In this document: positions 686-20,848 of the stretch, in pieces
How positions within the stretch are numbered: position 1 is the first letter of the stretch
Layout of the letters: each line of letters opens with the position of its first letter
Source: Lacibacter sp. H375
GTDB lineage: Bacteria; Bacteroidota; Bacteroidia; Chitinophagales; Chitinophagaceae
DNA length: 64,000 bases
Reading direction: 5' to 3'
NCBI RefSeq assembly: GCF_037892425.1
Contig: NZ_JBBKTT010000001.1
Location: 3,224,001 to 3,288,000, forward strand
The notes under the pieces: model-generated
What the model saw: the letters and a program-made list of their open reading frames with translations, nothing else
Told to the model about the DNA's origin: nothing
Database searches by the model: none
Position numbers and translations under genes: made by a program

Positions 686-711
686 GTTGCGAAGATAGTT
701 AATGGAATTGG

Positions 712-809: not shown

Positions 810-810
810 A

Positions 811-1902: not shown

Positions 1903-1954
1903 GATAAGAAGAGGATGGATGTGATGAAGTTTTTTGCCATGAGCTCTTTCGTTA

Positions 1955-1987
1955 TTGAAACTTCATTTTAATCGCCGTTTTTATTTG
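1955..1987 (+). promoter_or_regulatory. Possible Bacteroidota-type promoter for the 97-residue helical protein
   Basis: TTG at 1955-1957 and TTTATTTG at 1980-1987 resemble the -33 (TTG) and -7 (TAnnTTTG) elements of Bacteroidota promoters. The spacing (22 bp) is at the long end and one -7 base deviates. The gene start is 38 bp further downstream. Confidence 0.3.
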
Positions 1988-2025
1988 TAACTTGTACAAC
2001 AGCTTTTTTTAATTTAAAACTTACA

Positions 2026-2319: not shown

Positions 2320-2328
2320 CCTTCCACA

Positions 2329-2356
2329 GGCTGCAAGAGATTGCAGCCTTTTTTCT
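2329..2356 (+). terminator. Rho-independent terminator after the helical protein gene
   Basis: A perfect 7-bp stem GGCTGCA/TGCAGCC (2329-2335 and 2342-2348) with a 6-nt loop is followed by a T-rich run. It lies between the stop codon at 2319 and the next gene start at 2368. Confidence 0.85.
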
Positions 2357-2367
2357 TTCTTTGTTTT

Positions 2368-2955: not shown

Positions 2956-3461
2956 GTTTAAGCTTTAACGCTAACGAATTGATCAATATGTTGCAACTTG
3001 AACCGCATCCGGAAGGCGGTTATTACAGTCGCACTTATGCCAGCGATGAACAAATTGCAGTTGCAAGTTTGCCAACAAGGTTTGATGGTGATCGTTTGAT
3101 CTCCACAGCTATTTATTTTTTATTGGAAGGAAAAGATTATTCAGCATTTCATCGCATTAAGAGCGATGAGCTTTGGCATTTTTATGCTGGTGGTGGCTTG
3201 CATATTTATGTCATTCATCCCGATGGAAGAGGAGAAGTGCTATTGCTTGGGAATGACCTTGCAAGTGGTTATCGTTTTCAGCAAACAGTAAAAGCGGGTT
3301 GTTGGTTTGCTTCGAAACCTGCAAGAGAAAACAGTTTTTCATTGGTTGGATGCACCGTTGCTCCGGGTTTTGATTTTGCCGATTTTGAAATGGCGAAAGA
3401 GATTGAATTGTTGAAGCTATTTCCTCAACAACGTGAATGGATTAAACAGTTTTGCAGATAA
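2946..3461 (+). CDS. DUF985 cupin-superfamily protein
   Basis: The 171-residue product carries the family signature near the N-terminus, LINMLQLEPHPEGGYYSRTY, followed by the cupin core IYFLLEGKDYSAFHRIKSDELWHFYAGG with the metal-ligand-like His, Glu and His residues. DUF985 proteins are small RmlC-like cupins of unknown substrate. The 10-bp overlap with the preceding PNPOx-like gene implies translational coupling. No signal peptide is present, so it is cytoplasmic. The exact reaction is not known. Confidence 0.85.
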   Translation: MDIGLSFNANELINMLQLEPHPEGGYYSRTYASDEQIAVASLPTRFDGDRLISTAIYFLLEGKDYSAFHRIKSDELWHFYAGGGLHIYVIHPDGRGEVLLLGNDLASGYRFQQTVKAGCWFASKPARENSFSLVGCTVAPGFDFADFEMAKEIELLKLFPQQREWIKQFCR

Positions 3462-3551
3462 TTTATTTTTGAAATAATTTCTCATTTTTATTTCGTAGAA
3501 ACACAACCGTGGTTAAGATTTTATCGTTAGTAGACGAAACAAACATTTTTT

Positions 3552-4070
3552 ATGAGAAAGCATTTTCAACTAATGGCCCTGATGCTGTGCACTACGATTG
3601 TATTGGCATCTTGCTCAAAGTATTCTGATGAAATGTCAGAAAAGTCAAATCAGTTTCTTTCTGAACAGTCCGAACGTCAGACATCTTCATTAGAACAGAT
3701 CAGCGACGATGCAATCGTGTTTACTCAGGTAGTACAACTGGAAGGAAGCCAGGAAGTGCCTGCGGCAAATACAGAAACAAAAGGCATTGCCATTTTACGG
3801 GTGTCGAAAAGCAAGAAACTTTACTCCAAAATTATCATCCAGAAACTTGCTGAAGGTGATGCCCTGCGCTTTGCACATATACACATGGGGGCAGCAGGTG
3901 TAAACGGTCCGGTTCGTATTGGTTTAGCTGATAATGCATCGCAGTTTGGAGTTAATAGAACCATACAGCTTACGGATGCTCAATTCACATTACTTACAGA
4001 AGGGGCATGCTATGTGAATGCACATTCAAACTTTTTCCCTGGTGGAATAGTACGTGGGCAAATTCGTTAA
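3552..4070 (+). CDS. CHRD-domain lipoprotein
   Basis: A lipoprotein signal peptide ends in the lipobox LASC (Cys20). A low-complexity Ser/Glu/Gln linker follows, then a CHRD domain (about residues 55-171). The domain signature is visible as VQLEGSQEVPAANTETKG, RFAHIHMGAAGVNGPVRIGL and CYVNAHSNFFPGGIVRGQI, with the conserved histidines. CHRD domains were first described in chordin, and their bacterial function is not established. The protein should be anchored in the cell envelope. It appears to be a single-gene unit ended by a hairpin at 4089. Confidence 0.88.
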   Translation: MRKHFQLMALMLCTTIVLASCSKYSDEMSEKSNQFLSEQSERQTSSLEQISDDAIVFTQVVQLEGSQEVPAANTETKGIAILRVSKSKKLYSKIIIQKLAEGDALRFAHIHMGAAGVNGPVRIGLADNASQFGVNRTIQLTDAQFTLLTEGACYVNAHSNFFPGGIVRGQIR

Positions 4071-4088
4071 TTAGCAGAAACTGTTTTT

Positions 4089-4130
4089 AAGCATTTATAT
4101 TTTCTGATGAGAAAGTATAAATGCTTTTTA
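4089..4130 (+). terminator. Terminator after the CHRD lipoprotein gene
   Basis: An 11-bp stem AAGCATTTATA/TATAAATGCTT (4089-4099 and 4116-4126), with further inner pairing, is followed by TTTTATTTT. It separates the convergent CHRD and carbonic anhydrase genes. Confidence 0.8.
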
Positions 4131-4132
4131 TT

Positions 4133-4870
4133 TTAGAGAAATACGACTTCTCCTGTATGTAAATTGTAATAGGCGCCGACAATTTTTATTTCGCCTTTAT
4201 CAGCCATCTCTTTTAATAGTGGGCTTTGCTGTTTTATCATTTCAATTGCATTCAACACATTTTTTTTGGCAACGTATTCAACAAAAAGCGGATCTTTTGA
4301 TGTTTTCTTTCCTGCGTAATCGGCACAGCGTTCCACAGCCGGTTTTATTTTTGAAAGCATCGAGGTAATATTACCCATCTGTACATTTTCAATGGCCGCT
4401 TTAATAGCACCACAGGATTCATGGCCCAATACCAATATGAGTTTGGCCCCAGCTACTTTGCAACCATATTCCATACTGCCCAGCAGGTCTTCATTTACAA
4501 AATTACCAGCCACACGGCCAACAAACAGATCGCCGATTCCTTTATCAAACACATCTTCTACCGGCACACGGCTATCTAAACAAGAAAGAATAACTGCCTT
4601 TGGATATTGCCCTTGCGAAGCATCACGAACCATCGCAGAATGGTTGCGTGCTGTAAGATCCTGATGTGCATAACGGTAATTGCCATCCTTCAAACTTTTC
4701 AATACCGTTTCAGGTGTTAATGCCTTTTGTTCTTCGGCCGAGAGCACTTTTTCAATTAATGGTTTTGGTAATTCTGCTTCTGCTGTTTTTGTTGAACTTG
4801 ATTGATCGCAGGAAGTTGCACTTGAAAGCAGGCCTGTAAATACAGCAACAGATAGAGTTAGGCGAAGCAT
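4133..4870 (-). CDS. Beta-class carbonic anhydrase, predicted lipoprotein
   Basis: The enzyme interconverts CO2 and bicarbonate. The beta-class zinc ligands are present: Cys97 and Asp99-Arg101 in SCLDSRV, and His150 and Cys153 in GHESCGA. The 245-residue length and segments such as GNYRYA and VGRVAGNFV fit the family. The N-terminus (about 20 residues ending SATSC, Cys21) looks like a lipoprotein signal peptide, so the enzyme is predicted to act in the periplasm rather than the cytoplasm. It is separated by 69 bp from the Nudix gene upstream on the same strand. Confidence 0.9.
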   Translation of the reverse strand: MLRLTLSVAVFTGLLSSATSCDQSSSTKTAEAELPKPLIEKVLSAEEQKALTPETVLKSLKDGNYRYAHQDLTARNHSAMVRDASQGQYPKAVILSCLDSRVPVEDVFDKGIGDLFVGRVAGNFVNEDLLGSMEYGCKVAGAKLILVLGHESCGAIKAAIENVQMGNITSMLSKIKPAVERCADYAGKKTSKDPLFVEYVAKKNVLNAIEMIKQQSPLLKEMADKGEIKIVGAYYNLHTGEVVFL

Positions 4871-4939
4871 TTTTTAGCAGTTAAATGTGGAGTAATAGCT
4901 GAAATTAGTTCAATTTTTTGGGTTCGTTCTTTTCAGGAG

Positions 4940-5518
4940 TCATAAAATATTCTTCAACTGCATGTACTGCAGCAACATGATTGTCTTGGCATCTTTTATT
5001 TCACCTGTTTCAATCATTTGCATGGCTTTTTCAAACGGTAGTTCTAATACTTCAATATTTTCCTGCTCGTGTTCAACGCCTCCTCCTTCAGCAATTTTCA
5101 TTTGTGGTTCATAGGCTGCAATAAATAGATAAAGGATTTCTGTAACTGATCCCGGCGACATATACGCTTCATATACTTTTTTTATCTCTGTTACTTTGTA
5201 ACCTGTTTCTTCTTCTGTTTCACGGCGTATGCAATCTTCAGGATTGTCTTTGTCTAACAAACCTGCACATACTTCAATGAGCATACCTGTTTCATTACCG
5301 TTGATGTATGTAGGCAAACGGAATTGTTCTGTAAGTATCACAGTTCTTTGTGGCAAATTGTATAACAATATTGCAGCTCCATTACCACGGTCATACGCTT
5401 CACGTTGCTGCACCTGTATGCTGCCATCTTTTTTGCGGTACTCGTAAGTAACTTTCTTTAAGGTGTACCAGTTGTTGGAAAGAATATCTGTTTGCAGAAT
5501 GTTGATATTGCTGTTCAT
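4940..5518 (-). CDS. nudK: NudK-like Nudix hydrolase (GDP-mannose pyrophosphatase type)
   Basis: The 192-residue protein matches the NudK/ADP-sugar pyrophosphatase subgroup. The Nudix box is CAGLLDKDNPEDCIRRETEE followed by ETGY, and it is followed by the typical YEAYMSPGSVTEILYLFIA segment. Family members hydrolyse GDP-mannose or other nucleoside diphosphate sugars using Mg2+. The exact substrate cannot be decided from the sequence, since ADP-ribose pyrophosphatases are close relatives. It is encoded on the minus strand upstream of the carbonic anhydrase, without obvious functional link. Confidence 0.85.
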   Translation of the reverse strand: MNSNINILQTDILSNNWYTLKKVTYEYRKKDGSIQVQQREAYDRGNGAAILLYNLPQRTVILTEQFRLPTYINGNETGMLIEVCAGLLDKDNPEDCIRRETEEETGYKVTEIKKVYEAYMSPGSVTEILYLFIAAYEPQMKIAEGGGVEHEQENIEVLELPFEKAMQMIETGEIKDAKTIMLLQYMQLKNIL

Positions 5519-5586
5519 AGTTTGATGAAGATAAAGTTTATAAGAACAGGGAAGATATAATTGTATGCGGTTACAGACTTCAGCGG

Positions 5587-6300
5587 TTAATTATTTTCCT
5601 TTAGTAATTTGACTAACAAGAAACCGACGCTCATATTATTAATGCGATTTATTCGCCCGGTGTTAAATGTAATACCGTTAGCAGGTTGTTGAGTAATGCT
5701 ACTTAAACCAAAGCCCGTTAAGGTATAAAATTGTGGTAATTTATCTTTTTCCCAATTAAGCCAGGCTGTTGACCCTCCAACCGCTCCACCTTTATTCAGC
5801 TTCAACTCTTTTCCTTCTATTAATTCTAACCTAAGGTAATGTCCGGCTTTAATTTCTTTTGTTTCACCGTTCACGTTTAAAGTTACAGGTTTGTCATCCT
5901 CATTCTCCCGCCCAAAAACAAAGACTACATTTTTTTCATGGTTAGCTGTATTTATATCTATCAAGGTATCGGATGCAGCATAGCTGTCAAGTATCAGCTC
6001 GCATTCATTTTTTGATGTGTTTCTGGTAAAAGAATTTATTTTGTAACAATTCGCACCAAGCTTAGTTGCTTTTTTTCGAATCTCATAGTAGAGTAACTCA
6101 ATCGCCGCTTTTTTGCCTCTTACCTTTGCAGCAAATGTCGCAACGAACTGCATTGTACTCGTATCGGTTGATGGCTGAATAAAAGCAAAGACTTTCCCTT
6201 CAGTTAGATTTCCAACGTCAGCTTTTTTAAGTACTTCAACTTTTTGTGCGTGACAGTTTATTACAATAAGTGAAAATAGAGAAGCAAAGATTCTTTTCAT
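5587..6300 (-). CDS. Secreted protein of unknown function
   Basis: The 237-residue product starts with a signal peptide (MKRIFASLFSLIVINCHA, cleavage before Gln19). The mature part has no transmembrane helix. It includes KATKLGANCYKINSF, which resembles the YY-x-I-R...A..LGAN pattern of small envelope proteins that handle redundant names such as YjfN/YbgT-type domains, but I cannot assign it. The C-terminal part is beta-rich (VTLNVNGETKEIKAGHYLRL). It follows the ECF sigma/anti-sigma pair on the same strand, with a 48-bp gap, so it may share their transcript. Confidence 0.6.
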   Translation of the reverse strand: MKRIFASLFSLIVINCHAQKVEVLKKADVGNLTEGKVFAFIQPSTDTSTMQFVATFAAKVRGKKAAIELLYYEIRKKATKLGANCYKINSFTRNTSKNECELILDSYAASDTLIDINTANHEKNVVFVFGRENEDDKPVTLNVNGETKEIKAGHYLRLELIEGKELKLNKGGAVGGSTAWLNWEKDKLPQFYTLTGFGLSSITQQPANGITFNTGRINRINNMSVGFLLVKLLKENN

Positions 6301-6348: not shown

Positions 6349-6705
6349 TCACCCATTCTTCATCTTATAAATCACCAAAAAGCCCAGAACGATCAATACC
6401 AGTATTAAAAAAGTAGTTACAATAATCAACGATTGATTGGGCACAGGCCTGTGTTTCCGTTTGCGGCGCTGCTGTTGTAATTGTAGAGAGAGTTGTTTAT
6501 TGAGATCGGCTACGGCATGCTGCATCTTTTTTTCATCGGCCAGTCGAAGTCCTTCTTCTGCATCGCTCATCATATCAGACGAAGAAAGACGTTGCTCAAC
6601 TGCATTTCGTTCTTCGGGCGTGAGATTTCCCTGCAGGTAGTTAAGTAATTCCTGTTCAGTGAGATCGTCACGCTGGTTCAATATGTCAAGCAGGTTATCG
6701 GCCAT
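6349..6705 (-). CDS. Putative anti-sigma factor with one transmembrane helix
   Basis: The 118-residue protein has an acidic N-terminal helical region (residues 1-50, ELLNYLQGNLTPEERNAVEQ, typical of short anti-sigma domains), a basic Gln/Arg/Lys stretch, and a single transmembrane helix (about residues 92-114) near the C-terminus. The gene overlaps the 3' end of the ECF sigma gene by 11 bp, so it is translationally coupled to it. This arrangement is classical for sigma/anti-sigma pairs. The periplasmic part is only a few residues long, so signal input from outside would need a partner. Confidence 0.7.
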   Translation of the reverse strand: MADNLLDILNQRDDLTEQELLNYLQGNLTPEERNAVEQRLSSSDMMSDAEEGLRLADEKKMQHAVADLNKQLSLQLQQQRRKRKHRPVPNQSLIIVTTFLILVLIVLGFLVIYKMKNG

Positions 6706-7264
6706 TATTCTGTTGTTTCAGTAAAATCATTTTCAAGTTACGTTTTCCATTCTGAATATAGCTTTTCACCTGCATTAAGCTGTAACCGGTAGTGGAAGCA
6801 ATATCCGTATAGCTTTTTTTCTGCAGGTAAAACAGTTCAATACAGGTGCGTTGTTCAGGTATCAGTTCAGTTACGGCAATGGTTAGCCGCTCCAGTAATT
6901 CGTCTTTTTGTAAATGCTCGGTGTGGTTCACATCCTCGGCAGGTGTAGCCATCATCTGTTCACTTAATTCTTTGGGCAGTTTGCCTTTATCACGCAGCTG
7001 CATCAGGCAATGATTCTTGGCCACCATGTAGATCCAGCTTTTGAAATAATCCACTTTGTATTTGCCCAATTCTTTAATGGATTTTTCAAACACCTGTTGC
7101 ACGGCATCCTTCGCTTCTTCTTCGTTTTTCAAATATTTCATGCATACACCAAACAACAAAACCGTATAACGTTGCAGTAATTGGCCAAGCCATTTATTAT
7201 CGCCATCGTGGTAAAAGCGGTTGAGTAATTCCTGGTCGGGTATGGTGGAGTAGGTTGTATTCAC
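6695..7264 (-). CDS. RNA polymerase ECF sigma factor (sigma-70 family)
   Basis: The 189-residue protein has sigma region 2 at about residues 30-95 (VCMKYLKNEEEAKDAVQQVF, FKSWIYMVAKNHCLMQLR) and region 4 at about 128-180 (LIPEQRTCIELFYLQKKSYT, DIASTTGYSLMQVKSYIQNG), with no region 1 or 3. It directs RNA polymerase to a specific promoter set. The downstream overlapping membrane protein is the probable anti-sigma factor. The regulon is unknown. The gene is divergent from the NlpC/P60 gene, with 92 bp between the starts. Confidence 0.92.
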   Translation of the reverse strand: MNTTYSTIPDQELLNRFYHDGDNKWLGQLLQRYTVLLFGVCMKYLKNEEEAKDAVQQVFEKSIKELGKYKVDYFKSWIYMVAKNHCLMQLRDKGKLPKELSEQMMATPAEDVNHTEHLQKDELLERLTIAVTELIPEQRTCIELFYLQKKSYTDIASTTGYSLMQVKSYIQNGKRNLKMILLKQQNNGR

Positions 7265-8644: not shown

Positions 8645-9193
8645 TTAAAGTTTGTCACGGTATTTGTCTTTGTAAAATCCGATTGCCTCTTCTATGATCT
8701 GAAAGGCTTCAGCTTTATTCTGAAAATTATCGATCTCCACCACTTTATTCTCAAGTACTTTATACTCTTCAAAATAGTGTTTCAGCTCGTGAAAGAAATG
8801 TTCAGGCAATTCATCAATATCCTTAATGTGTTTAACAGTAGGATCGTTACTGGCAACTGCAATAATTTTATCATCACGTTCGCCCTGGTCGATCATTTGC
8901 ATATTACCGATCACCGTTGCTTCAACAAGGCACAGGGGTTGAATAGATTGTGAACAGATCACCAGAATATCAAGCGGATCGCCATCCTGTCCGAGTGTTT
9001 GAGGAATAAATCCGTAGTTGACGGGGTAGATAAACGAAGAGAATATTACCCGGTCGAGACGGAGCAAACCAGTGTCTTTATCAATTTCATATTTACTGCG
9101 ACTGCCTTGTGAAATTTCAATGAGTGCGTTTACACGTTCTGGGGCTTTAGGGCCATAATGGGCGCCATGCCAGGGATGAAGGACTGTGATCAT
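8645..9193 (-). CDS. ppa: Inorganic pyrophosphatase (family I)
   Basis: Hydrolysis of pyrophosphate drives biosynthetic reactions. The family I signature DGDPLDILV is at residues 70-78, with metal-binding Asp70, Asp72 and Asp75. The substrate-binding region SRSKYEIDKDTGLLRLDRV and SSFIYPVNYGFIP are also intact. At 182 residues the length is normal. It is cytoplasmic and is followed by the half-size TauE gene after only 3 bp. A short heptamer repeat and a terminator of the upstream gene lie just before it. Confidence 0.95.
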   Translation of the reverse strand: MITVLHPWHGAHYGPKAPERVNALIEISQGSRSKYEIDKDTGLLRLDRVIFSSFIYPVNYGFIPQTLGQDGDPLDILVICSQSIQPLCLVEATVIGNMQMIDQGERDDKIIAVASNDPTVKHIKDIDELPEHFFHELKHYFEEYKVLENKVVEIDNFQNKAEAFQIIEEAIGFYKDKYRDKL

Positions 9194-9760: not shown

Positions 9761-11251
9761 TTATTTTCTTTTTGCTAACCCCGTGAAAATTCCGCTCCCG
9801 GGGTGGTTGGCATCGTTCATCCACAAAACTCTTCCGCCTTTAATGGCTGAGAAATAAACATCAAAAGTTTTATCCTGGCCTCCAATATTTGAAAAAGACA
9901 TCTGCCAGTTATTAAGTGATTTAAAAATACCGTCGCTTTTTGATTGTGCGGCATTGATAACTCCTCCGCCTGAATTAGTCATAACCGCTTCCCAATGATA
10001 TTTGTTACCGCTGCTGAATTCATACCATTGTGATGCTGAAAAGGTGCTCATGCCGGCAAAATTGCCGCTGTAATAGTTGTAGTAAAATGTATTGCTTGAA
10101 AAATTGGCATCCCATCTGCCAGTATTATTAAGGTCTGTGGCAGCTACAGCAAACTTATTCCTGCCTGTCATATTATCTAGTTTATTGTACAGTTCAGGCT
10201 CATCTGCTTTTATTACAACACCCTGACTGTTATCAACTACATATCCGCCGGAATAATCGGTAACTTTTGCCCAACGAATAGTTTCAGGGTTAAAGCCAAA
10301 CTCCTGGGTAAACGTTAATACATCCGGTGTAATGACTTCCATCCATCCCGCACTTCTGCGAAACAGAACAACAAAAACAGAATTGCCTGAATTATTTTCG
10401 GTAACAGTACCCATGCCGAAATAGGGACGGTTGTTTGTTTCTACATAAGCTGTTTTGTAATTGACTAATTGAGAGTAACGTGGTGCTACCAATATATTCC
10501 AGGCTGCAGTAGTAAGTTTATCAGGATCAGCAGGGAAAATTGTGCCTTCTTTTGGGAAATGCAAAAGTACTTTGATGTTTCCTTTTACAACTTCTACCCA
10601 ATCTTCCTGTATGGTACTGGTCCATCCATCATCAAAATTGGTAGTATTAAATGCATAACCGGTGTTTACAGAAGTTGTTTGTTGAGTTGTCGTTGTTTGT
10701 TGTTGTTCAGGTGTTGTTTGTTGGGTAGTTGTCTGTTGCTCAGTTGTTATTTGTTGCTGTGTGTTTATTTGTTGTGTCGTTGTTTGTTGTTCAGGCATTG
10801 TTTGCTGTTGCTGCTGAGGAATTGTATTTTGAAATGTCGTAGGAGCAGCTCCTAATTCGCCAAAGTATAATTCAATGGATGTTTTCTTCTTTTCAAAATA
10901 CAACACGAGGTTTCGACTATCTTTTTGTAACCATGCATATTTGTTGTCAGTTTCTAATGGTTGAATAGCATAGCCAAGATTACTTAGCTGTGCTACCAAA
11001 GAATCTGATGAGAAGCCTGATTCAGCAGGTAATGTCAATACTTCTACTTTTGAAACAGTTGTGCCTGCTTTTTTTGTTTCCATTTCAAGTAATGTTTTAG
11101 CAGTTATTTCCGTAAGGAAACGACTGTCCTGTTTACTGCCATTCGGTAAACTCATGCCGGAAATGGCAGATTGATTTACAGGGGTTACTTTCTTTTGTGC
11201 TATTGTAACAGCACTCTGGAAGAGGATGATCAGAATAATGAGTTGTTTCAT
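9761..11251 (-). CDS. Secreted protein with Gln/Thr-rich linker, unknown function
   Basis: The 496-residue product has a signal peptide (about 18 residues, ending TIAQ). An N-terminal mixed domain (about 30-140) is followed by a linker of about 50 residues made nearly only of Gln and Thr (encoded at about 10665-10830). A large C-terminal beta-rich domain follows (about 200-496), starting with FDDGWTSTIQEDWVEV and rich in Trp, Tyr and Asn. I recognise no catalytic family. It is the last gene of a five-gene secreted-protein block but has its own putative promoter, with a CCTT-N5-AAGG element shared with the first gene of the block. Confidence 0.75.
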   Translation of the reverse strand: MKQLIILIILFQSAVTIAQKKVTPVNQSAISGMSLPNGSKQDSRFLTEITAKTLLEMETKKAGTTVSKVEVLTLPAESGFSSDSLVAQLSNLGYAIQPLETDNKYAWLQKDSRNLVLYFEKKKTSIELYFGELGAAPTTFQNTIPQQQQQTMPEQQTTTQQINTQQQITTEQQTTTQQTTPEQQQTTTTQQTTSVNTGYAFNTTNFDDGWTSTIQEDWVEVVKGNIKVLLHFPKEGTIFPADPDKLTTAAWNILVAPRYSQLVNYKTAYVETNNRPYFGMGTVTENNSGNSVFVVLFRRSAGWMEVITPDVLTFTQEFGFNPETIRWAKVTDYSGGYVVDNSQGVVIKADEPELYNKLDNMTGRNKFAVAATDLNNTGRWDANFSSNTFYYNYYSGNFAGMSTFSASQWYEFSSGNKYHWEAVMTNSGGGVINAAQSKSDGIFKSLNNWQMSFSNIGGQDKTFDVYFSAIKGGRVLWMNDANHPGSGIFTGLAKRK

Positions 11252-11270
11252 TTCAGTGATACTTATGTTT

Positions 11271-11325
11271 CAAAAATACCGGTACGGTGCAATTCTTGTT
11301 ATCCCTTAAAAGAAGGAAATTTAAT
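11271..11325 (-). promoter_or_regulatory. Putative promoter and operator of the 496-residue secreted protein gene
   Basis: On the minus strand TATTTTTG (11278-11271) matches the Bacteroidota -7 consensus TAnnTTTG exactly and lies 20-27 bp before the start codon. Upstream, plus-strand ATCCCTTAAAAGAAGGA begins at 11301, exactly 50 bp from the start codon. It contains the inverted repeat CCTT-N5-AAGG. A nearly identical element sits at the same distance before the gene starting at 17654. Confidence 0.6.
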
Positions 11326-11332
11326 TCATGGT

Positions 11333-13297
11333 TCAGCCCTTAGTAACTTTAATATTACTGATGTATACACCTGTTTCCTTTGAGTTGCTGGTGAAGTTCT
11401 CCCAGCTGATTGTATTAAATGAAAGCCCTGCCGGTATTCTGCAATCCTTACATATACCACCATAAGCCAGTTTCATATCTTTCCCTGAAACAGCAACTCT
11501 TGTATTATTTATAAATAATTGAATTTCTCCATTGTTGAAACTGAGTTTTACCTGCACTTTCCTTTTTTTATTTGTGAACTCTGTAAGACTCTTGGTATAA
11601 AATGCTCCTTCATTAAAGTTTTCCCTAAACAGGGGCGGGTTGGTGTGCAGTTCAAGTTTAGCTTCACCTCTGTAATTATTATTATACAAGTCAGCTTCAT
11701 TGCCTGCACCTATAGTAAGTTGCACATAAGCGCCATCCTTTGCTTTATTCTCTCCTCCTGTGGCTAATAATGGGTAGGTGCTCAGATAGAGTTTAACTGT
11801 TCCACCAGATCTGCTGCTGAAATCATCTGTAACAATGTCAAAGCTGATAGAAAAATTTTGTGGCAGCGGTTTTTTTAAAGAGAATGGTGTTACCGTATTA
11901 TTGTATCCCAGTTTCAGCCATTTTCCTGTTTCATTTTTAATTGTTGTAATGGTGGAGTGCTCGCCTGAAGTGCTCATCTTCCAGCCTTTGGCATTGGTAC
12001 CCTCAGCATTTATTGAAAAATCATCTGCAAGTAATACATTGGGTGAAGTGCTTGTATTTATAAAACTTACTGTTTCCATGCCTTTTTTTCGATAAGTATC
12101 TAAACGGGCTTTCAGTTGTTGTTCATTTGCCGGTGTATAGGGTTTGCCCTTTACTTTATCCGGGTTAAAGAAATAATTATAAGCATACTCATAGTTGAAA
12201 TTTTCTATAACAGATTTGTACATCTCATATTCCTGGTTGCCATCCGTTTTTGTTGTGTAGGGTACAGTTATATTAAGCCATTGCGGTTGGTCTGTTTTGC
12301 ATTTTTGAAGTAATTCTTTTGAGTATTTGTACACTCTGTAATAGTCTTTATTATTAAAAGCAACTTCACGAATAACAAAAGGATCGGGATCTGTTTCAAA
12401 GCTGTAAATATTCATACTGTAATTATCTACGATGGCTGGCTCATTTAATGTGGCACTGTGTTTTGCTTTTAATTTTTGAATATTGAGCAGGTGTTTTTCC
12501 ATTACTTTCTTTCGGCCCTCATATGCTTTTTCAACAGCTACTTTATTACTACTGCCAAACTGCTGCTCAATGGTCATTTTCAATTCTTTCAAAAGAATTT
12601 CAAATGATTCTTCGGCCATTTGTAGTAATTCACCTTTTGTAACAGCAACAATTGGGAGTTTATTGCCAGGCACAAGAAAGACTGATTGAACTTGTTTATT
12701 CTGCCATGTTAACCATGGATACAAATTCGGATGAATTTTCGGGTCAGCCTTTTTTCTTTCATCGCCAATTAAGTTACTTGCCGTTTTATCTTCTTCCCAG
12801 GTAAAAACATACCTGTCATCATTATTGATCCATGAAATTGGCCAGGTGCCCGGTAGTGTATTTACTTCAATATCAAAGCGTGTATATTCTTCTGATACAG
12901 GTTTGAAATGTCCTTTGGCATCTAACCATTTGCCGTTGTAGGTATAGCTTACGTTCCATACACGAAAGTCTATGCCATACGAATGTGGGGGATAGCGTTT
13001 AATAGGTCTGTATTCGCCAGCGGTAATGAAAAGTTTTTTATCATGAGTTCCCAGCCCGCCTACCGGAGTATAGGTTTGTCGCATCCATCTGATGATTTCA
13101 TTTAAGTTTTCCTGCTGCTTTACAGAAAACGTTTTGCCTTCGCCTGTAAATGGTGTTGTTGCCTTTTTGGGTTCTGCAGTATACCAACCAATAATACTAT
13201 CCTGTATCCTTTCTTCAGGTGTTAGTTGGGCCATTATTTGGTTTATAAGAAAAAAAGAAAAAACGATTGATGCCGATATCTTCTTCATGTTGATCAT
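11333..13297 (-). CDS. Secreted protein with C-terminal jelly-roll-like domain, unknown function
   Basis: The 654-residue product starts MINMKKISASIVFSFF (Met4 is an alternative) with a signal peptide ending IMAQ. Residues 60-200 are rich in Trp and Tyr. A helical middle part contains VAVEKAYEGRKKVMEKHLLN. About residues 440-654 (VLLADDFSINAEGTNAKGWK to GVYISNIKVTKG) have the strand pattern of concanavalin/LamG-like or 3-keto-disaccharide hydrolase-like domains, which often bind glycans. I do not recognise the N-terminal part. The start codon overlaps the stop of the upstream gene (ATGA), so the two are translationally coupled. Confidence 0.75.
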   Translation of the reverse strand: MINMKKISASIVFSFFLINQIMAQLTPEERIQDSIIGWYTAEPKKATTPFTGEGKTFSVKQQENLNEIIRWMRQTYTPVGGLGTHDKKLFITAGEYRPIKRYPPHSYGIDFRVWNVSYTYNGKWLDAKGHFKPVSEEYTRFDIEVNTLPGTWPISWINNDDRYVFTWEEDKTASNLIGDERKKADPKIHPNLYPWLTWQNKQVQSVFLVPGNKLPIVAVTKGELLQMAEESFEILLKELKMTIEQQFGSSNKVAVEKAYEGRKKVMEKHLLNIQKLKAKHSATLNEPAIVDNYSMNIYSFETDPDPFVIREVAFNNKDYYRVYKYSKELLQKCKTDQPQWLNITVPYTTKTDGNQEYEMYKSVIENFNYEYAYNYFFNPDKVKGKPYTPANEQQLKARLDTYRKKGMETVSFINTSTSPNVLLADDFSINAEGTNAKGWKMSTSGEHSTITTIKNETGKWLKLGYNNTVTPFSLKKPLPQNFSISFDIVTDDFSSRSGGTVKLYLSTYPLLATGGENKAKDGAYVQLTIGAGNEADLYNNNYRGEAKLELHTNPPLFRENFNEGAFYTKSLTEFTNKKRKVQVKLSFNNGEIQLFINNTRVAVSGKDMKLAYGGICKDCRIPAGLSFNTISWENFTSNSKETGVYISNIKVTKG

Positions 13298-15711
13298 TTT
13301 AATTTTGAAAATGAACTTTCTCCTTTTGCGCTATAACCACTGTTAACACTCCAGCGGCTATCAGCACTTACGTTTACTGACGGAGCAGCTGGTAAACTTA
13401 GTTTTACGGTTTCAGGTTCAGTTACTTTTCCTGATTTAGAGATCATCCCTGGTGTTACTTCAACTTCGTTGTCAACTTCCAGTTTACTTGCGATGTCCAG
13501 TTCTGATTTTTCTTTTACAATAAAGTCAGCAATGATTCCATCTTCACTTCTCGTAAGTTCCATGCTTACGCCTAATTCATTTTTCAAACCTACTTCCACA
13601 GGAGCTTCTTCTTCCATTGTTTTTGGAAGCAAGCTTAATTCTTTATCTATCCCCATTTCAATGCTTCCCTTTTTAAATCCTTTTTCATCAATTTCGGCGT
13701 CCATTTTTATACCAACTCCGTTAATATCAGTTCCAATGCTTCCTGAACCATTTATTTCTCCTTTTTTATTAATCTCTGCACCTATATTCACATCAACCCC
13801 TTTTATTTCAGTCTCAATACTTCCGGTACCTTTTTTAAAATTTCCCTTTTTATCAAACTCTGCACCTACATTAATTTTTACTTCTTTTATTTCAATTCCA
13901 ACAGATGCCTGTTCTATAAAGCCATCAAAATTTGCTGTAAGGCTTGCTTCAAATGGAAGCATGATTGGGTTGAGCTGAAGACTCATCGTATTACATCTCA
14001 TAACAATGTTACCAAGGCCCGGCGTGTAAATACGATTATATATTTTACAATTCACTTCATCGTAGTCATTCAGAGGTTTTAGAATACTGTATTCTGCTTT
14101 TTTCTGTATATCTGAACTGCAAGGATATCCTAAATCACTTTCATGAAATAATTCATATAATCTTTCCAGAAATCCTGCACGTAAATTCAAAACAATCATT
14201 TGTGCAGAGGCATCTGTTTTGGCAGTGGAAGGGTAATAATAGTACATATTATAAAACTCAGTAAGCCAAAAAGAAACCGATAGTTCGTTGGATTTTATAT
14301 TCAGCTGATTTGTTTTTTCAAGAAATTCATTGATAATGGGTAATTGACCTTCGCAATTGACCTGTTTGTTTGCACCTCTTTTGATTTCTTCGTCAAACCG
14401 GATTCGCTCTTTTTCTAAAGCTATGTCAAACTTGATTTTAAGTTCAGTCTTTTGTTTAACAAGCAGTAACAATTTTTCAGTGTATTGTTTTAAACGGCGA
14501 TCAAAGTCTTTTGTATAATTGTTATATCGTTCAACAGCTTTACTATAATATGGAGAATAGATGTTGAATTTGCTGGCCTGTGCTTTTTTAAAGAACGCCT
14601 GTTCTGCAATGCTTGCATTTTTGCTTACAAGTGTCAATTGTGCATTAATCTTTTCCTTCTCTGCCTTAATGATTTCTCTGAATTCACGCCATTGCAATTC
14701 TATATTGCTACCTAAATTGGTTGCATAAATTTTTGGAACCATTGCTGCATATTCATGTAAATTAAACGTGGTGGAATAGTATACTCTTGGTGCATAAAAT
14801 CTAACAGGCTTGTATTGATCTGCTTCCAATTCTTTTAACAGGTTGTTTTTTTGGGTGGTGACACTGTGTTTTAACGAGCGGTGCAGTGCAGCAATTGCTT
14901 CAGCCCTTTTGCCTCTTGCTTTCAGCAGCAGGCATTTTGTATAGTTCGCCTGCGGGTGGTAGGTATAAACACGAACAGCGCTGTCTAAATACTTTTCACC
15001 TTTCAACTCTTCACCCAGTTGCAACCATGCCTGCCCAAGATTATTAAGTATAGTGCTGTTGTTTTTATGAACACTGTTTAGCTTTTCAAGAATTGGCAAT
15101 GCGATATGTGCGGCACCACCCATTGTAAGATAGGATGCAAAATTGTTTAGATTGTCTGCATTTGGAATTGCTTCAACTGCTTTGCCCATTAAGTAGGTTG
15201 CAGATTCTTTATACCCATACATCCACATGCCATTGGCTGCTGATGCAATCATAAATCCGTAATAAGGATCGTTTTTAAATTGATCATTTATTTTATCAGC
15301 CATTTGCCGGGCTTCCGGTTTTATTAATGATGCAATAGATAGGTTGGTTTTTTTGATGAATGCCAGTAACTGCTCTTTTGAAAAAATTGTTTTAGGTAAT
15401 GCGTTAATCAGTGCTGTTTTCCTGGCAGGTACAACCCTGTTTTCATCCTCCCATGCAACAGCCAATTGTTTATCAGTAACACCTGACATGTTCTTCTTAT
15501 TCGGAATTTTTATTCCCATGCTGTCGAACATTCTCCTTTCTTCCGGTGTCATATTTTTTAAGATGTTATCCATCTCATTCATCATTTCGTCCATTTCTTT
15601 TTGCGTGGGCGGTTTTTCCTGTGGTTTTACAGGTTTGGGTTTGTTTTGCGCAAACATGTTGCTGCATGCTAATAGCAAAAGGAATAAAAAAAGTAATGAG
15701 TAAAATTTCAC
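13294..15711 (-). CDS. Secreted TPR protein with C-terminal beta-repeat region
   Basis: The 805-residue protein has a signal peptide (about 21 residues ending MFAQ; LLACS at 14-18 could also serve as a lipobox). A Lys/Pro/Met-rich segment follows, then a helical region with TPR-like motifs (about 150-290, for example STILNNLGQAWLQLGEELKG). A long coiled-coil-like middle part follows (about 350-480). Residues about 635-740 hold at least three tandem copies of a roughly 26-residue unit of the form SIxxxIxGVxxNxGAEIxKKG. A scaffold role at the cell surface is inference. It lies in the same operon as its neighbours, with 4-bp overlap to the downstream gene. Confidence 0.78.
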   Translation of the reverse strand: MKFYSLLFLFLLLLACSNMFAQNKPKPVKPQEKPPTQKEMDEMMNEMDNILKNMTPEERRMFDSMGIKIPNKKNMSGVTDKQLAVAWEDENRVVPARKTALINALPKTIFSKEQLLAFIKKTNLSIASLIKPEARQMADKINDQFKNDPYYGFMIASAANGMWMYGYKESATYLMGKAVEAIPNADNLNNFASYLTMGGAAHIALPILEKLNSVHKNNSTILNNLGQAWLQLGEELKGEKYLDSAVRVYTYHPQANYTKCLLLKARGKRAEAIAALHRSLKHSVTTQKNNLLKELEADQYKPVRFYAPRVYYSTTFNLHEYAAMVPKIYATNLGSNIELQWREFREIIKAEKEKINAQLTLVSKNASIAEQAFFKKAQASKFNIYSPYYSKAVERYNNYTKDFDRRLKQYTEKLLLLVKQKTELKIKFDIALEKERIRFDEEIKRGANKQVNCEGQLPIINEFLEKTNQLNIKSNELSVSFWLTEFYNMYYYYPSTAKTDASAQMIVLNLRAGFLERLYELFHESDLGYPCSSDIQKKAEYSILKPLNDYDEVNCKIYNRIYTPGLGNIVMRCNTMSLQLNPIMLPFEASLTANFDGFIEQASVGIEIKEVKINVGAEFDKKGNFKKGTGSIETEIKGVDVNIGAEINKKGEINGSGSIGTDINGVGIKMDAEIDEKGFKKGSIEMGIDKELSLLPKTMEEEAPVEVGLKNELGVSMELTRSEDGIIADFIVKEKSELDIASKLEVDNEVEVTPGMISKSGKVTEPETVKLSLPAAPSVNVSADSRWSVNSGYSAKGESSFSKLK

Positions 15712-15752
15712 TGTTGCTGGTTTAAAATTTATTAGTTGAATTCAATATTTTA

Positions 15753-16358
15753 TTAGTTGAAACCTGAAGTATCTTTAAGTATAGTTGAAATAATGGGCGT
15801 AAAATTTCCATCGGCTCTGCATTCAAAAAATTGTTCCCATTGATTTAAAAAACCGCTTGTATTATTAAATACTATTGTTTTGTTGCCAAGGGTTGGATGC
15901 AGGTTGCCATTTTGATCTTTAAATTCCAGTGTAACACTGATGCCCTCAATGCGCCATGCATCTGTAAACAGGTGAGGCATATACATAATGCGGAGTATGA
16001 TGCCTGATTGTTGAATATCAGTCAATAAAAAACTACCAATGTTTACAGTGTTAGTCCATTTGTATAAACCGAACTCATTTATACTGTTTACCTGCATTTC
16101 ATTTCTTGTATTGGTGCCCGGTTGTTGAAATAAAATACCCTTGCCTTTTTGAATAAGCCACACTGTTACTTCTGAAGGGAATTCTTTATTGTCTCTTCCT
16201 GTGCTAATGCTTACCCGGGCATTCGTTAAAGTGTAAACCGGTGTTTGAGTAACATTGATTGGTTTTAGTGTTGAGATTTTTGTTGGGCTTAGTATTTGAG
16301 CATTGGTTATAACTGTGCTCAACAGGCAAGGAAGTATAATTGTAATTAACTTATTCAT
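15753..16358 (-). CDS. Secreted beta-rich protein, unknown function
   Basis: The 201-residue product has a signal peptide ending TNAQ (residue 21). The mature protein is beta-rich (YTLTNARVSISTGRDNKEFP, SEVTVWLIQKGKG, WRIEGISVTLEFKDQNGNLH) and recalls a PLAT- or jelly-roll-like sandwich that describes a thermodynamic or ligand-binding fold rather than an enzyme. I see no catalytic motif. The spacers to both neighbours are short (41 and 45 bp), so it belongs to the same operon. Confidence 0.7.
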   Translation of the reverse strand: MNKLITIILPCLLSTVITNAQILSPTKISTLKPINVTQTPVYTLTNARVSISTGRDNKEFPSEVTVWLIQKGKGILFQQPGTNTRNEMQVNSINEFGLYKWTNTVNIGSFLLTDIQQSGIILRIMYMPHLFTDAWRIEGISVTLEFKDQNGNLHPTLGNKTIVFNNTSGFLNQWEQFFECRADGNFTPIISTILKDTSGFN

Positions 16359-16403
16359 TTTGAATTGGATTGTATAGTTGGATAATATATTGCCAAATTT
16401 TTA

Positions 16404-17654
16404 TTACCTGATATTAGTAGTTGCAGACACAGCCGCTTTATTCATTACCCATCTGCCACCGCCTCCTGCATTTGTGCCCGGGCCCCATGTTCCGTTAAGT
16501 TGGGTGCCGGTTAAAGATGCTGAGAATGAAAAACCAGAACTGGCGCCGTTGTAGGTGTAGGAACCGCTAAGTTGGTTATTTGAAAACGTGTAACGGCCCG
16601 ATGCAATACTGTTGCCGCTTGCATCCAGTAATTTCATAGTGCCATCAGTATTTAATTGAAAGCAATAAAAATTCGCTCCATTACTGCTGCCATTACCCCA
16701 TGTGCCTTTCCATACACCTGCTATGGAAGTTGGTGTAGACGTTGCAATGGTACCCGTTGTAGTACCCGGTAACGTTTTATAGGTTGTGTTAATCGTTGCG
16801 CCCGTGGCTGGTACTGTATTGCCCGCAACAGTTGTGCTTTGCGCCGGGAAAAACTCTATTTTCATCAGCACCGTGTAAATGCCGTGATCCCTTAAATTAC
16901 CAACCGCAGTTTCATCATATTGCACAGGTATAACACCCTTGCCAAATCCCATATCGCTATTACTGATGAATGCGAGGTTAGGTGTGTTCAATACAACAAA
17001 TTTTGGAGAGAAGTCGCCATATTTTTCCATACCGATGGGTCTTGTGCCGGGTTTCCCTAATTCCCCCTGCTCACCGCCCGCTTTCAATTTTGGCATACCA
17101 AGCTGGCTGGCTCCTAAAATAATTGACGTAGGGTTCATTGTTAAAATGCCGAATCCAATTGCAAGTGGTGCAATTTTTTGATTGATGCTGTATGCCATGC
17201 TTTGAATGGTAGAACTAAATCCTGCCTGGTTATCTGCTATGGGATCTTGTTCCCAACCGGTAGGTATGATGGTTAATATGTCGCCACTTGTCATGTCGTA
17301 TTCTCCAAGAAGCAGATTAGCCCGGTAATTATCGCCGGCTTTAATTCCGCCTTTGTTATTGCCAAATAAATCAACCCAGGTGCCAACACTTATACGGTTT
17401 GAAAATTGACCGGATGCATCACCATAAACCGGTGTTCGTTTTTCATAATTTAGTTTCGTGTTGCCGTTTTTATCACCCAGCAGAAAGGAAAATGTAAAAT
17501 AAACTTCATCGCCTTTCCCGTCTGAATGTAAAACATCATCCCAGGTTTCACGATAGCACTCAAAACCTGCAAATGATATACGAATGCGGCCTGATTGTGC
17601 CAGCATTGTATTAGATGTAGCAATGAATAACATCAAATAAAATAGCTTTTTCAT
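16404..17654 (-). CDS. Secreted protein with C-terminal lipocalin-like beta domain, first gene of the secreted block
   Basis: The start at 17654 (MKKLFYLMLFIATSNTMLAQ) gives a clear signal peptide; a longer frame has no such support. The 416-residue protein has an N-terminal domain of about 280 residues (GRIRISFAGFECYRETWDDV, with the acidic loop HSDGKGDEVYF), a Thr/Ala-rich linker, and a C-terminal domain of about 90 residues (GVWKGTWGNG...LSGSYTYNGASSGFSFSASL...GTWGPG). The latter repeats the strand pattern of lipocalin-like bacterial domains. Function is unknown. It is divergent from the histidine kinase gene, and a putative operator lies between them. Confidence 0.75.
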   Translation of the reverse strand: MKKLFYLMLFIATSNTMLAQSGRIRISFAGFECYRETWDDVLHSDGKGDEVYFTFSFLLGDKNGNTKLNYEKRTPVYGDASGQFSNRISVGTWVDLFGNNKGGIKAGDNYRANLLLGEYDMTSGDILTIIPTGWEQDPIADNQAGFSSTIQSMAYSINQKIAPLAIGFGILTMNPTSIILGASQLGMPKLKAGGEQGELGKPGTRPIGMEKYGDFSPKFVVLNTPNLAFISNSDMGFGKGVIPVQYDETAVGNLRDHGIYTVLMKIEFFPAQSTTVAGNTVPATGATINTTYKTLPGTTTGTIATSTPTSIAGVWKGTWGNGSSNGANFYCFQLNTDGTMKLLDASGNSIASGRYTFSNNQLSGSYTYNGASSGFSFSASLTGTQLNGTWGPGTNAGGGGRWVMNKAAVSATTNIR

Positions 17655-17673
17655 GTGTATGTTTTTGTTGATG

Positions 17674-17730
17674 TAAAAATGATGCAGTGTCCTGATTGGC
17701 ACCATCCCTTAAAAAAAGGATATTTTAAAA
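17674..17730 (-). promoter_or_regulatory. Putative promoter and operator of the secreted-protein operon
   Basis: Plus-strand ATCCCTTAAAAAAAGGA begins at 17704, exactly 50 bp from the start codon at 17654, and contains CCTT-N5-AAGG. On the minus strand CATTTTTA (17681-17674) occupies the same position as the perfect -7 box of the 496-residue protein gene, with two mismatches. The element lies in the spacer shared with the two-component genes, 89 bp from the kinase start. Confidence 0.6.
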
Positions 17731-17818
17731 CGGGTAAAAAATCATGTGAAAAAGGGAGGTGCTACTATAAAATGGTTGATTTTATTTGCAGTATGCCAAT
17801 TTGATTTTATATTAAGAC

Positions 17819-19750
17819 ATGCAAAAACTACTGTTCTATATTTCCCTTTTCCTTTTTTCAGTTGCAGATGCACAAGTACTGATGAACAGGGACAGTCTTT
17901 TGAAATTACTGCCCACAATTAAGGAAGATTCAGCAGGTGCAGAATTTTATATTGTTCTTGGTCAGCAATATGAAAGCAGTGAACCTGAACTGGCGAAACA
18001 TTATTATCACAAAGCCGGAATCATCAGTGAAAAAATAAATTACCCGGCAGGGGTGTTGCGCTATATTTTCAATTACACATTTGTACTAAACCTGCAGGGC
18101 AGATTTGACTCTGGTCTCGCTCTCAATTTAAAAGCAGTACCTATTGCAAGAAAACTGAATGATCCCGTCATGTTGGGGAAAGCATTGTTTAATGCAGGAT
18201 CTTCATACAGGATGCTGGCACAATTTGAAAAGGCAATTTCATTATACGAAGAAGGGCGAAAAATATTTGCATCGAATGGCGATAGTTTGTTAATGGCCAG
18301 GAGTTATGATATTATACAAATGCTTTACTATAATCTCGAAAACTATGATAAAGGAATTTACTATGGTGAAACAGCGGTGAAATGGCTTCGTACAATTGAC
18401 GATCCTTTGTGGTTGGGTACTACTTTAAATAATTTAGGCATGAATTATATAAAGAAAGGCGATAGTAAAAAGGCAAAGGAGGCATGGATGGAAGCGTTGG
18501 CCATCAGCAAAAAAATCGGCAACTTGGAAATGGAGGGCTCTCAAATGCTCAATCTTGGCGATTTATATATGCATGCAGGAGAATTCGCAATTCTCAAAGA
18601 CTATTATGGCAAAGCATTGGATTTGTATACTCAACTTGATGGAGCCGAAGGTATTGCCATTGCTTTACGTGGACTTGCCATTTATGAATACTTCAATAAA
18701 AATTTCGAGGCAGCAAAAAAATATGCAGAGCGGTCGCTTGAAGTGATTAATAAAAACAACCTGCAGCTTGAAAAAATAAAAACACTAGAAACTTTATCGA
18801 GCATTCATATTGCTATGCAGGATCTAATTACCGGACAGAGATATATGCAGGAAGCAACAGTTCTTTCTGATAGTTTGTTAAATGACCGGGTACGCAAAGC
18901 TTCTATTGATGCAGAAACCAAATATGAAACTGCAAAAAAAGATGTGCAAATACAATTGCAGCGGGCAGTTATTAAACAAAAGAACACGCTCAACTACTTT
19001 TTAAGTGCGGGTGCTGCAGCGCTATTACTTATTTCAGTTCTTGGCTACCGCAATTACAAACAAAAACAAAACCTGCAGCAGCAACGCATAAATGAACTGG
19101 AAACCGAAAAACAATTAGCCGCAACTGAAGCAGTACTTAAAGGCGAAGAACAGGAACGCACCCGGCTTGCAAAAGATTTGCATGACGGTTTGGGTGGTAT
19201 GCTCAGCGGTATTAAATATTCAATGAATACTATGAAAGGAAACTTAATCATGACGCCTGATAATGCACAGGCCTTTGAACGCAGCATGGATATGCTGGAC
19301 AGTTCTATTAAAGAAATGCGCCGTGTGGCACACAATCTTATGCCGGAAGCATTGGTGAAATTTGGATTAGATACTGCATTGAAAGATTTTTGTAAGGACA
19401 TTCATCAATCAGGTGCTTTGAATGTTTCATATCAATCTGTAGGTATGGAAGGAAAAGCACCAGATCAAACAACTGCCATTACAGTCTTTCGCATTGTGCA
19501 GGAATTGCTGAACAATACGTTGAAACATGCTGCTGCAAAAAATGCCATTGTACAGTTAAACAGAACTGATGATCAGCTTTCCGTTACTGTGGAAGATGAT
19601 GGTAAAGGATTTAACACAGCTGTCTTGGAGCACAATCGTGGTATTGGCTGGGATAATATTCAAAACCGTGTGGATTTTATGAAAGGAAAGTTGGATGTAA
19701 AATCGGGTGAGGGTAAGGGAACATCGGTGCATATTGAAATAAACGTTTAA
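17819..19750 (+). CDS. TPR-containing sensor histidine kinase (HisKA_3 type)
   Basis: The 643-residue protein has a signal peptide (ending VADAQ) and a periplasmic sensor region of tetratricopeptide repeats (about 50-360). A transmembrane helix follows (about 392-411), then a cytoplasmic HisKA_3 dimerisation domain with the phospho-acceptor His455 in KDLHDGLGGMLSG, and a HATPase_c domain with VEDDGKGF and the GIGWDNIQNRV box. This is the NarX/DesK-like class that pairs with NarL-type regulators. Its stop codon is directly followed by the ATG of the response regulator gene, so the pair is co-transcribed. It probably controls the adjacent secreted-protein block. Confidence 0.93.
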   Translation: MQKLLFYISLFLFSVADAQVLMNRDSLLKLLPTIKEDSAGAEFYIVLGQQYESSEPELAKHYYHKAGIISEKINYPAGVLRYIFNYTFVLNLQGRFDSGLALNLKAVPIARKLNDPVMLGKALFNAGSSYRMLAQFEKAISLYEEGRKIFASNGDSLLMARSYDIIQMLYYNLENYDKGIYYGETAVKWLRTIDDPLWLGTTLNNLGMNYIKKGDSKKAKEAWMEALAISKKIGNLEMEGSQMLNLGDLYMHAGEFAILKDYYGKALDLYTQLDGAEGIAIALRGLAIYEYFNKNFEAAKKYAERSLEVINKNNLQLEKIKTLETLSSIHIAMQDLITGQRYMQEATVLSDSLLNDRVRKASIDAETKYETAKKDVQIQLQRAVIKQKNTLNYFLSAGAAALLLISVLGYRNYKQKQNLQQQRINELETEKQLAATEAVLKGEEQERTRLAKDLHDGLGGMLSGIKYSMNTMKGNLIMTPDNAQAFERSMDMLDSSIKEMRRVAHNLMPEALVKFGLDTALKDFCKDIHQSGALNVSYQSVGMEGKAPDQTTAITVFRIVQELLNNTLKHAAAKNAIVQLNRTDDQLSVTVEDDGKGFNTAVLEHNRGIGWDNIQNRVDFMKGKLDVKSGEGKGTSVHIEINV

Positions 19751-20374
19751 ATGAAGATCAAAGTTTTTATTGTAGATGATCATTATATGGTGGTGGAAGG
19801 AATCCGCTCCATGCTGCAAACAGAAATTTCTGTTGAGTGGATGGGGCATGCTTCCAATGCTGATTCCTGCATGGCTTTTTTGAAACAACAGCAACCCGAT
19901 GTGTTGCTCATGGATATTAATATGCCCGGAAAAAACGGTATTGAGTTGTGTGGCGAAGTAAAACAAAAATATCCCGGAGTGTTTGTGTTGGCGCTGAGTA
20001 CATTCAATCAGCAAAGTTTTATTGAAAAAATGATGAATAATGGCGCATCAGGTTATGTGCTGAAAAATGCATCTCAACATGAACTGATGGAAGCGATAGA
20101 AACCGTTGCTAAAGGAAAAATATTTTTAAGTGAAGAAGCTGCAGCGATGCTTCGTAAAGATGACAATAGTGAAGTACCTGTTATTACGAGGAGAGAAAAG
20201 GAAGTATTGGAATTGCTGGCCGACGGATTAACAAACAATGAAATTGCTGAGAAATTATTTGTGAGTGCCACTACAGTTGACAGTCACCGTAAAAGTTTAG
20301 TAGCCAAACTGAAAGCCAAGAACACACCTGAACTCATTAAACTGGCATTTATCCATAAACTTATCGGAACATAA
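19751..20374 (+). CDS. NarL/FixJ-family response regulator
   Basis: The 207-residue protein has an N-terminal receiver domain with the acidic pocket VDD (residues 8-10), phospho-acceptor Asp55 in LLMDINMPG, the conserved Ser/Thr in ALST and Lys in YVLKN. The C-terminal LuxR-type helix-turn-helix is about residues 140-205 (ITRREKEVLELLADGLTNNE, IAEKLFVSATTVDSHRKSL). Such regulators bind imperfect inverted repeats. The CCTT-N5-AAGG elements at 11301 and 17704 are the natural candidate sites. It is directly abutted by the kinase gene before it and the sheath-like gene after it. Confidence 0.94.
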   Translation: MKIKVFIVDDHYMVVEGIRSMLQTEISVEWMGHASNADSCMAFLKQQQPDVLLMDINMPGKNGIELCGEVKQKYPGVFVLALSTFNQQSFIEKMMNNGASGYVLKNASQHELMEAIETVAKGKIFLSEEAAAMLRKDDNSEVPVITRREKEVLELLADGLTNNEIAEKLFVSATTVDSHRKSLVAKLKAKNTPELIKLAFIHKLIGT

Positions 20375-20848
20375 ATGAAATGGATTTTATTAATATCTCT
20401 GTTAAGTATTCATGTAGCACTTTCAGCACAGGATACTATTCAGCGTGTGAAACTTTCGGAGTTGCAGCAAACAAGGCTACTGTCATCACCAAGACTCATA
20501 AAATCTTCATTAACAACGGCACAAAAAATTGAATTGCGTATCAATCAGTTTCTGGATTCAATGGTTCGTACAGCTGATGCCAGTCCTTTTTTTATACAAA
20601 AAATAAAAAACGGTGTGTCAAATATTTTATATGAATTCTGGAAGATGGGTATGCTCACTGGTTTAGCACAGGAACAAGCTTTCTATGTAAAATGCAATGC
20701 TCAAACAATGACAGCTAAAGATATTGCCGAAGGGAGATTGGTTGTAATAGCAGGGTATGCATTAATCAAGCCTGCTGAATTTGAAGTGATCCGTTTTGAA
20801 CGGATGCTTATCAACAAAACTCCACTCCAATACGCAGCAAATTTCTGA
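20375..20848 (+). CDS. Exported protein with phage tail-sheath C-terminal-like domain
   Basis: The 157-residue product starts with a signal peptide (MKWILLISLLSIHVALSA, cleavage before Gln19). Residues about 75-150 strongly resemble the C-terminal domain of contractile tail-sheath proteins: a helix ending NILYEFWKMGMLTG, then AQEQAFYVKCNAQTMTAKDI, AEGRLVVIAGYALIKPAEF and EVIRFERM. In sheaths the equivalent reads roughly LW..GAL.G.T.EEAFFVKCD..T....I..GR..V.IG.APVKPAEFVVFRI. The rest of a sheath (400 or more residues) is absent. It begins immediately after the response regulator stop codon, so it is the third gene of that operon. Its function is unknown. Confidence 0.8.
   Translation: MKWILLISLLSIHVALSAQDTIQRVKLSELQQTRLLSSPRLIKSSLTTAQKIELRINQFLDSMVRTADASPFFIQKIKNGVSNILYEFWKMGMLTGLAQEQAFYVKCNAQTMTAKDIAEGRLVVIAGYALIKPAEFEVIRFERMLINKTPLQYAANF

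Follow-up and report, generated by a model that had tools for sequence, protein, structure and literature searches.

The window, i.e. the whole stretch of 64,000 nt analysed here, comes from a genome of the family Chitinophagaceae that belongs to the same genus group as G001, one of the genomes compared below. It holds five tightly consecutive genes on the (-) strand, all coding for secreted proteins: gene A (16404-17654, 416 aa), gene B (15753-16358), gene C (13294-15711), gene D (11333-13297) and gene E (9761-11251, 496 aa). Divergent from these, on the (+) strand, are the genes for a histidine kinase (17819-19750), a NarL-type response regulator (19751-20374) and, directly after the regulator, a secreted protein of 157 aa (20375-20848), homologues of which follow the regulator in loci L056 and L057, too. 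In a Pfam search genes A to E and the 157-aa protein matched no family, gene C giving a weak TPR-like match under the cut-off. Regulator (PF00072, Response_reg; PF00196, GerE) and kinase (PF07730, HisKA_3; PF02518, HATPase_c) were recognized with all domains above the cut-off and hence are a NarL/FixJ-type regulator with a HisKA_3 kinase. The kinase has, furthermore, TPR repeats (TPR_12 and related matches) and a signal peptide, read by eye, the features of a periplasmic TPR sensor. The two genes are adjacent and their pairing is conserved in relatives.

Structural searches with the secreted proteins remained negative: the profile of gene A matched no solved structure (best E 0.57; the predicted structure has a pLDDT of 44) and the model of gene E (pLDDT 75) had no PDB match at E<=0.001. 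Its weak PsbP-like matches (E 0.014, probability 0.96) may serve as a lead only. At about 10640-10830 gene E has a Gln/Thr-rich low-complexity stretch of low model confidence. The C-terminal residues of gene A, approximately 306-410, form a domain of about 100 aa that belongs to no Pfam family; the majority of genomes of the genus have it, alone or as part of a different protein. The gene at 8645-9193, starting MITVLHPWHGAHYG, adjoins the cluster in L056, L057, L060, L061 and L110 as well, as if this were a fixed chromosomal place with changing cluster contents.

Two copies of one element, TCCTTYTTTTAAGGGAT in gene-strand reading, are located on the (-) strand at 17704-17720, upstream of gene A, and at 11301-11317, within the 81 bp that separate genes D and E. 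A preliminary description had reported such a repeat at identical distance before two genes, and this is borne out: ATCCCTTAAAANAAGGA is present at both places, the window has no other copy at up to three mismatches, and from the first base of each copy it is exactly 50 bp to an ATG, at 17654 and 11251, respectively. The start at 17654 was set from orthologues (the mechanical list of open reading frames has a longer frame from 17705). The -7-like box that had been described at the same position in both is likewise there, beginning 22 bp after the 17-mer in each case, at 17674-17681, (-), in the gene A promoter (CATTTTTA) and at 11271-11278, (-), in the gene E promoter (TATTTTTG); outside element and box the flanks of the two copies are dissimilar. 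The inverted repeat CCTT/AAGG exists, yet it had been drawn too short, as the repeat extends over 16 bp and is TCCYNTTTTTNRGGGA-like. No third copy had been seen; a degenerate one is present at 17742-17757 on the (+) strand. In the following, these predicted operators are called O1-A (17704-17720, TCCTTTTTTTAAGGGAT, in the promoter of the gene A operon), O1-E (11301-11317, TCCTTCTTTTAAGGGAT) and O2 (17742-17757, TCATGTGAAAAAGGGA, facing the kinase gene and with a degenerate left half).

The window has 61 upstream regions. Their closest pair of 17-mers at the same position shares 16 of 17 bases, and in 200 dinucleotide-shuffled sets of upstream regions the maximum was 15 shared bases, reached nine times. 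These window statistics by themselves give moderate support, the pattern having been picked after the fact. The exact form occurs at two places in the 5.08 Mb genome, both within the window. When up to two mismatches were allowed, five places were found (three for the control pattern read backwards); thus, the looser matches in this genome sit at background. A scan of 59 relatives at one mismatch returned 27 matches versus 10 for the backward control. In view of these counts, single near-matches were not taken as evidence. One of them, a one-mismatch element at position 200 of L123 (G004:C199), is located at a contig end, and the 9 kb fetched there contain neither a kinase nor a regulator.

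Comparison with orthologous promoters, which had been proposed as a check, was more telling. In both G001 and G003, gene A is preceded by the element at the corresponding position, and so is gene E, though in G001 by a diverged copy. Upstream of gene A it was found in all ten loci of named genomes, nine of which are outside the genomes used for training the model described below. No more than two of the 12 fixed positions deviate, and the distance from the start is nearly unchanged (48 to 51 bp; in one locus the start was moved to the next ATG). All ten also have a box, CAnnTTTA or CAAATTTG, at 22 bp. In the fetched relatives a variant element precedes other secreted-protein genes that adjoin homologous kinase-regulator pairs, and the consensus of 28 sites, TCC(C/T)NNTTTT(A/T)(A/G)GGGAT, is near an inverted repeat. 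Upstream of the gene A-like genes of L058 (G032) no site was found. As to the second gene of the preliminary description, gene E, its site is real, yet three of five orthologues (L059, L060, L061) have none directly upstream. We regard this conservation as decisive evidence for the element being real.

The two boxes in the window match the Bacteroidota -7 motif TAnnTTTG in six of six and four of six positions. When this motif was placed at offsets of 10-34 bp after the element in all 28 sites, 131 of 168 positions matched at 22 bp, compared to 31 to 81 at the 24 other offsets; at least five of six box positions were matched in 17 of the 28 sites at 22 bp and in at most two sites at any other offset. 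Since the sites had been picked by the 17-mer and not by the box, the box constitutes an independent observation. A conserved -33 TTTG was not found in the first bases after the 17-mer, according to column counts over the 28 sites. With the box numbered -12 to -5, as in the excerpted text of PMC6847099, the 16-bp repeat is predicted to span -51 to -36 with its centre at -43.5, a position predicted from the box.

A similar arrangement is seen in the direction of the kinase. In eight of ten aligned divergent kinase promoters, all selected for having the element there, a second conserved block occurs 37-38 bp upstream of the element, TCCCCTTTTTCCATGAT when read towards gene A. In kinase direction it reads TCATGGAAAAAGGGGA, with TTTATTTG 23 bp further on; in the window this -7 box is at 17781-17788, (+), 23 bp after O2. 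The best operator-box pair is spaced 22-23 bp in 14 out of 19 kinase upstream regions, and the block at -37 is present in four of the ten named gene A loci. O2, having the same geometry before the kinase-regulator operon, likely mediates autoregulation.

For a search independent of the window, a sequence-only model, R1, was derived from 23 sites of relatives, none of them from the window's genome. In this 5.08 Mb genome only the two window sites were significant (E 1e-6 for O1-A, 2.9e-4 for O1-E), the next of 14 listed matches having an E of 0.21. The genome-wide scan suggested earlier thus finds the element rare, with two exact copies and two significant model matches. The weaker matches (E 0.21 and worse) were considered as regulon members and rejected: tblastn detected no kinase, regulator or cluster gene near the 12 that were fetched. 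Over 195 genomes of the family, R1 had matches at E<=0.01 in 54, whereas a reversed control model, the alignment read backwards, had them in nine and in none at E<=1e-3. The regulator is present in 58 of the 195 (E<=1e-70). With the three training genomes left out of both co-occurrence tests, it was found in 22 of 27 genomes matched at E<=1e-3, the window's own genome among these, versus 55 of 192 overall (Fisher P 8.5e-10). The location of the matches was compared with a regulator table of 36 rows, those of the genomes with matches. Within 20 kb of a regulator lie 24 of the 42 held-out matches (E<=1e-3), all 24 on the opposite strand and several at a distance of about 2.0 kb, which is the length of the kinase gene; the other 18 have no strict regulator match within that distance. 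Around 29 fetched match loci, approximately 1.5 kb contained the kinase in 18 and other cluster genes in two; the remaining nine held neither kinase, regulator nor cluster gene. Conversely, 33 of the 55 held-out genomes with a regulator had no R1 match at E<=1e-3.

The window's genome harbours a paralogous pair (L063, G000:C1:1985000-2003000) with a regulator 63% identical to the one described here (2762-3388) and a kinase (3393-5321). It adjoins C-like and E-like genes and has a diverged element, TCCTGTTTTTCCATGAA, with a box, TACGTTTA, at 22 bp; this element is absent from the R1 matches listed at E<=10. Some site-bearing clusters of relatives encode secreted proteins of very large size, complete ones having about 2,100 aa; they are located in L109 at 10708-17190, L061 at 10920-17192, L120 at 16025-19501 and L121 at 1-6201. 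CARDB repeats and a sorting tail for type IX secretion are present in the one of L109.

A kinase-facing operator was sought in 79 loci by a rule in which the discriminating bases are left unspecified. This rule located one in 40 loci and none in the other 39. Position 13 of the operator, in its proximal half, differs with a single residue in the recognition helix of the regulator: where this residue is D or E, 24 of 25 loci have G, and where it is N, 13 of 14 have A. These counts include the site of L182, which the rule probably mispicked. Genomes G158 and G161 each have one D-type and one N-type locus, each locus with its own half-site. A tree analysis covered 39 of these 40 loci; L219, which has no recognized helix residue, was dropped. 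In the regulator tree computed without the helix, 13 of the 14 N rows form one supported clade; the D/N difference amounts to two changes on this tree, and in a contrary case, L193, the regulator has N but the operator keeps G. Being essentially one evolutionary switch plus one contrary case, with too few pairs for a test of independent pairs, the covariation was not accepted as decisive evidence, although it looked so by count. It fits the co-inheritance of regulator and operator and would by itself be no proof of contact. One may ask whether a portable cassette exists throughout the Chitinophagaceae, consisting of TPR-sensor kinase, NarL-type regulator and back-to-back operators at fixed spacing before interchangeable secreted-protein operons, in which regulator clades switched the operator code (GGGGA versus GATGA/GAGGA half-sites). 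We consider this a possibility about as easily doubted as believed and leaning slightly towards doubt. If true, the switch would shield paralogous systems that share a genome from each other, as in G158 and G161.

The elements, their fixed spacings, their conservation and rarity and the co-occurrence with the regulator can be read directly from the genomes compared. From there we infer the operon structure, autoregulation, the phosphorylation and binding of the regulator, and that it activates instead of repressing. With good confidence, the element can be seen as the operator of the NarL-type regulator (19751-20374), whose partner would be the TPR-sensor kinase (17819-19750), in a system with class II-like activation and control of its own synthesis. 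The phosphorylated regulator dimer would bind the inverted repeat just upstream of the -7 box, which is of the Bacteroidota housekeeping type, and recruit RNA polymerase. The secreted-protein operon, genes A to D, would then be transcribed from the O1-A promoter and gene E from an internal promoter at O1-E, and O2 would exert autoregulation on the kinase-regulator operon that it faces. It is the NarL-like position of the operator, together with the missing conserved -33 TTTG, that leads us to propose class II-like activation.

The same regulator and operator could also act by repression, the bound protein blocking polymerase and an inactive kinase releasing the cluster. Geometry alone is compatible with this, and NarL is described in the excerpted text of PMC4549865 as both activator and repressor. 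However, the operator precedes the box with a spacing that is constant at 22 bp, and its predicted span of about -51 to -36 (numbering of PMC6847099) is close to that of the activating NarL 7-2-7 sites at napF and yeaR (PMC4549865). Moreover, no conserved -33 TTTG follows it, as in activator-dependent promoters, yet promoters of Flavobacterium johnsoniae generally have a weak -33 motif (PMC6847099). We hold repression to be unlikely, and the element is probably an activator site of the adjacent regulator.

Much less probable still is a role of the element as upstream recognition box for an alternative (ECF) sigma factor. A candidate gene (6695-7264) is situated about 4 kb from gene E and sigma boxes, too, keep a constant spacing, but a homologue of this gene occurs in only three of 24 fetched loci (the window, L057 and L110) and sites in most of them, palindromes of 16 bp are unusual for sigma boxes, the -7 box belongs to the housekeeping type, and the model matches track the NarL-type regulator. 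This reading was rejected on the distribution of the sigma gene in these 24 loci. The two copies might finally represent a recent duplication or a chance match devoid of function, for they are 6.4 kb apart and 1.2 copies are expected by chance in the window at three mismatches. With flanks beyond element and box that are unlike each other, an element kept at the same place in relatives and only these two sites in the genome significant for a model built elsewhere, this appears scarcely conceivable, and it is the conservation which contradicts it.

That both copies belong to one regulon under the neighbouring NarL-type regulator, as the preliminary description suggested, is supported by an element that is kept upstream of orthologues, is rare, tracks the regulator and points away from it. 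Commonness at random places and absence upstream of orthologues had been named as contrary outcomes, and neither refuted the reading. A regulon it is, but not a scattered set of secreted genes: it seems small and local, comprising the two operon promoters and probably the regulator's own. For a TPR-sensor NarL-type system of Chitinophagaceae, this yields a predicted operator sequence and the geometry of its promoters, with which the regulons of many uncharacterised secreted-protein clusters become predictable from sequence; the pairs of regulator and operator, with their two codes, allow one to test how insulation between paralogous systems is kept up.

Among open-licence papers no description of this operator was found. 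The comparisons drawn from the literature refer to the excerpted text of the papers cited. In Escherichia coli, NarL activates napF and yeaR from 7-2-7 sites, the inverted repeat being centred near -43 (PMC4549865), and the element described here resembles these in its C-rich and G-rich inverted half-sites, the family of its presumed regulator and the predicted promoter position. It is, however, not a 7-2-7 site, as 4 bp lie between the CCCCT and AGGGG cores, compared to 2 bp in the engineered site TACCCCTAAAGGGGTA (PMC4549865); the outer base is TC rather than TAC, the promoter is of Bacteroidota type, and there is no link to nitrate. With the Bacteroidota housekeeping promoter (-33 TTTG / -7 TAnnTTTG, PMC6847099) it shares a box fitting TAnnTTTG 22 bp after the operator, whereas a conserved TTTG is missing in the -33 region, immediately upstream of which the operator is located. 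The nearest known system is FimS/FimR of Porphyromonas gingivalis. The presumed target genes here are not recognised as fimbrial, the kinase stays far below the cut-off of the equivalog model NF053520 (70.1 bits versus 600), and the excerpts of PMC5706477 and PMC1974823 name no FimR operator sequence. Yet FimS/FimR, too, is a two-component pair of Bacteroidota with a periplasmic TPR sensor kinase (PMC5706477), the NCBIfam FimS model aligns with the sensor part of the kinase described here, and FimR, likewise a NarL-type regulator, controls genes of surface or secreted proteins, binding the mfa1 promoter directly (PMC1974823).
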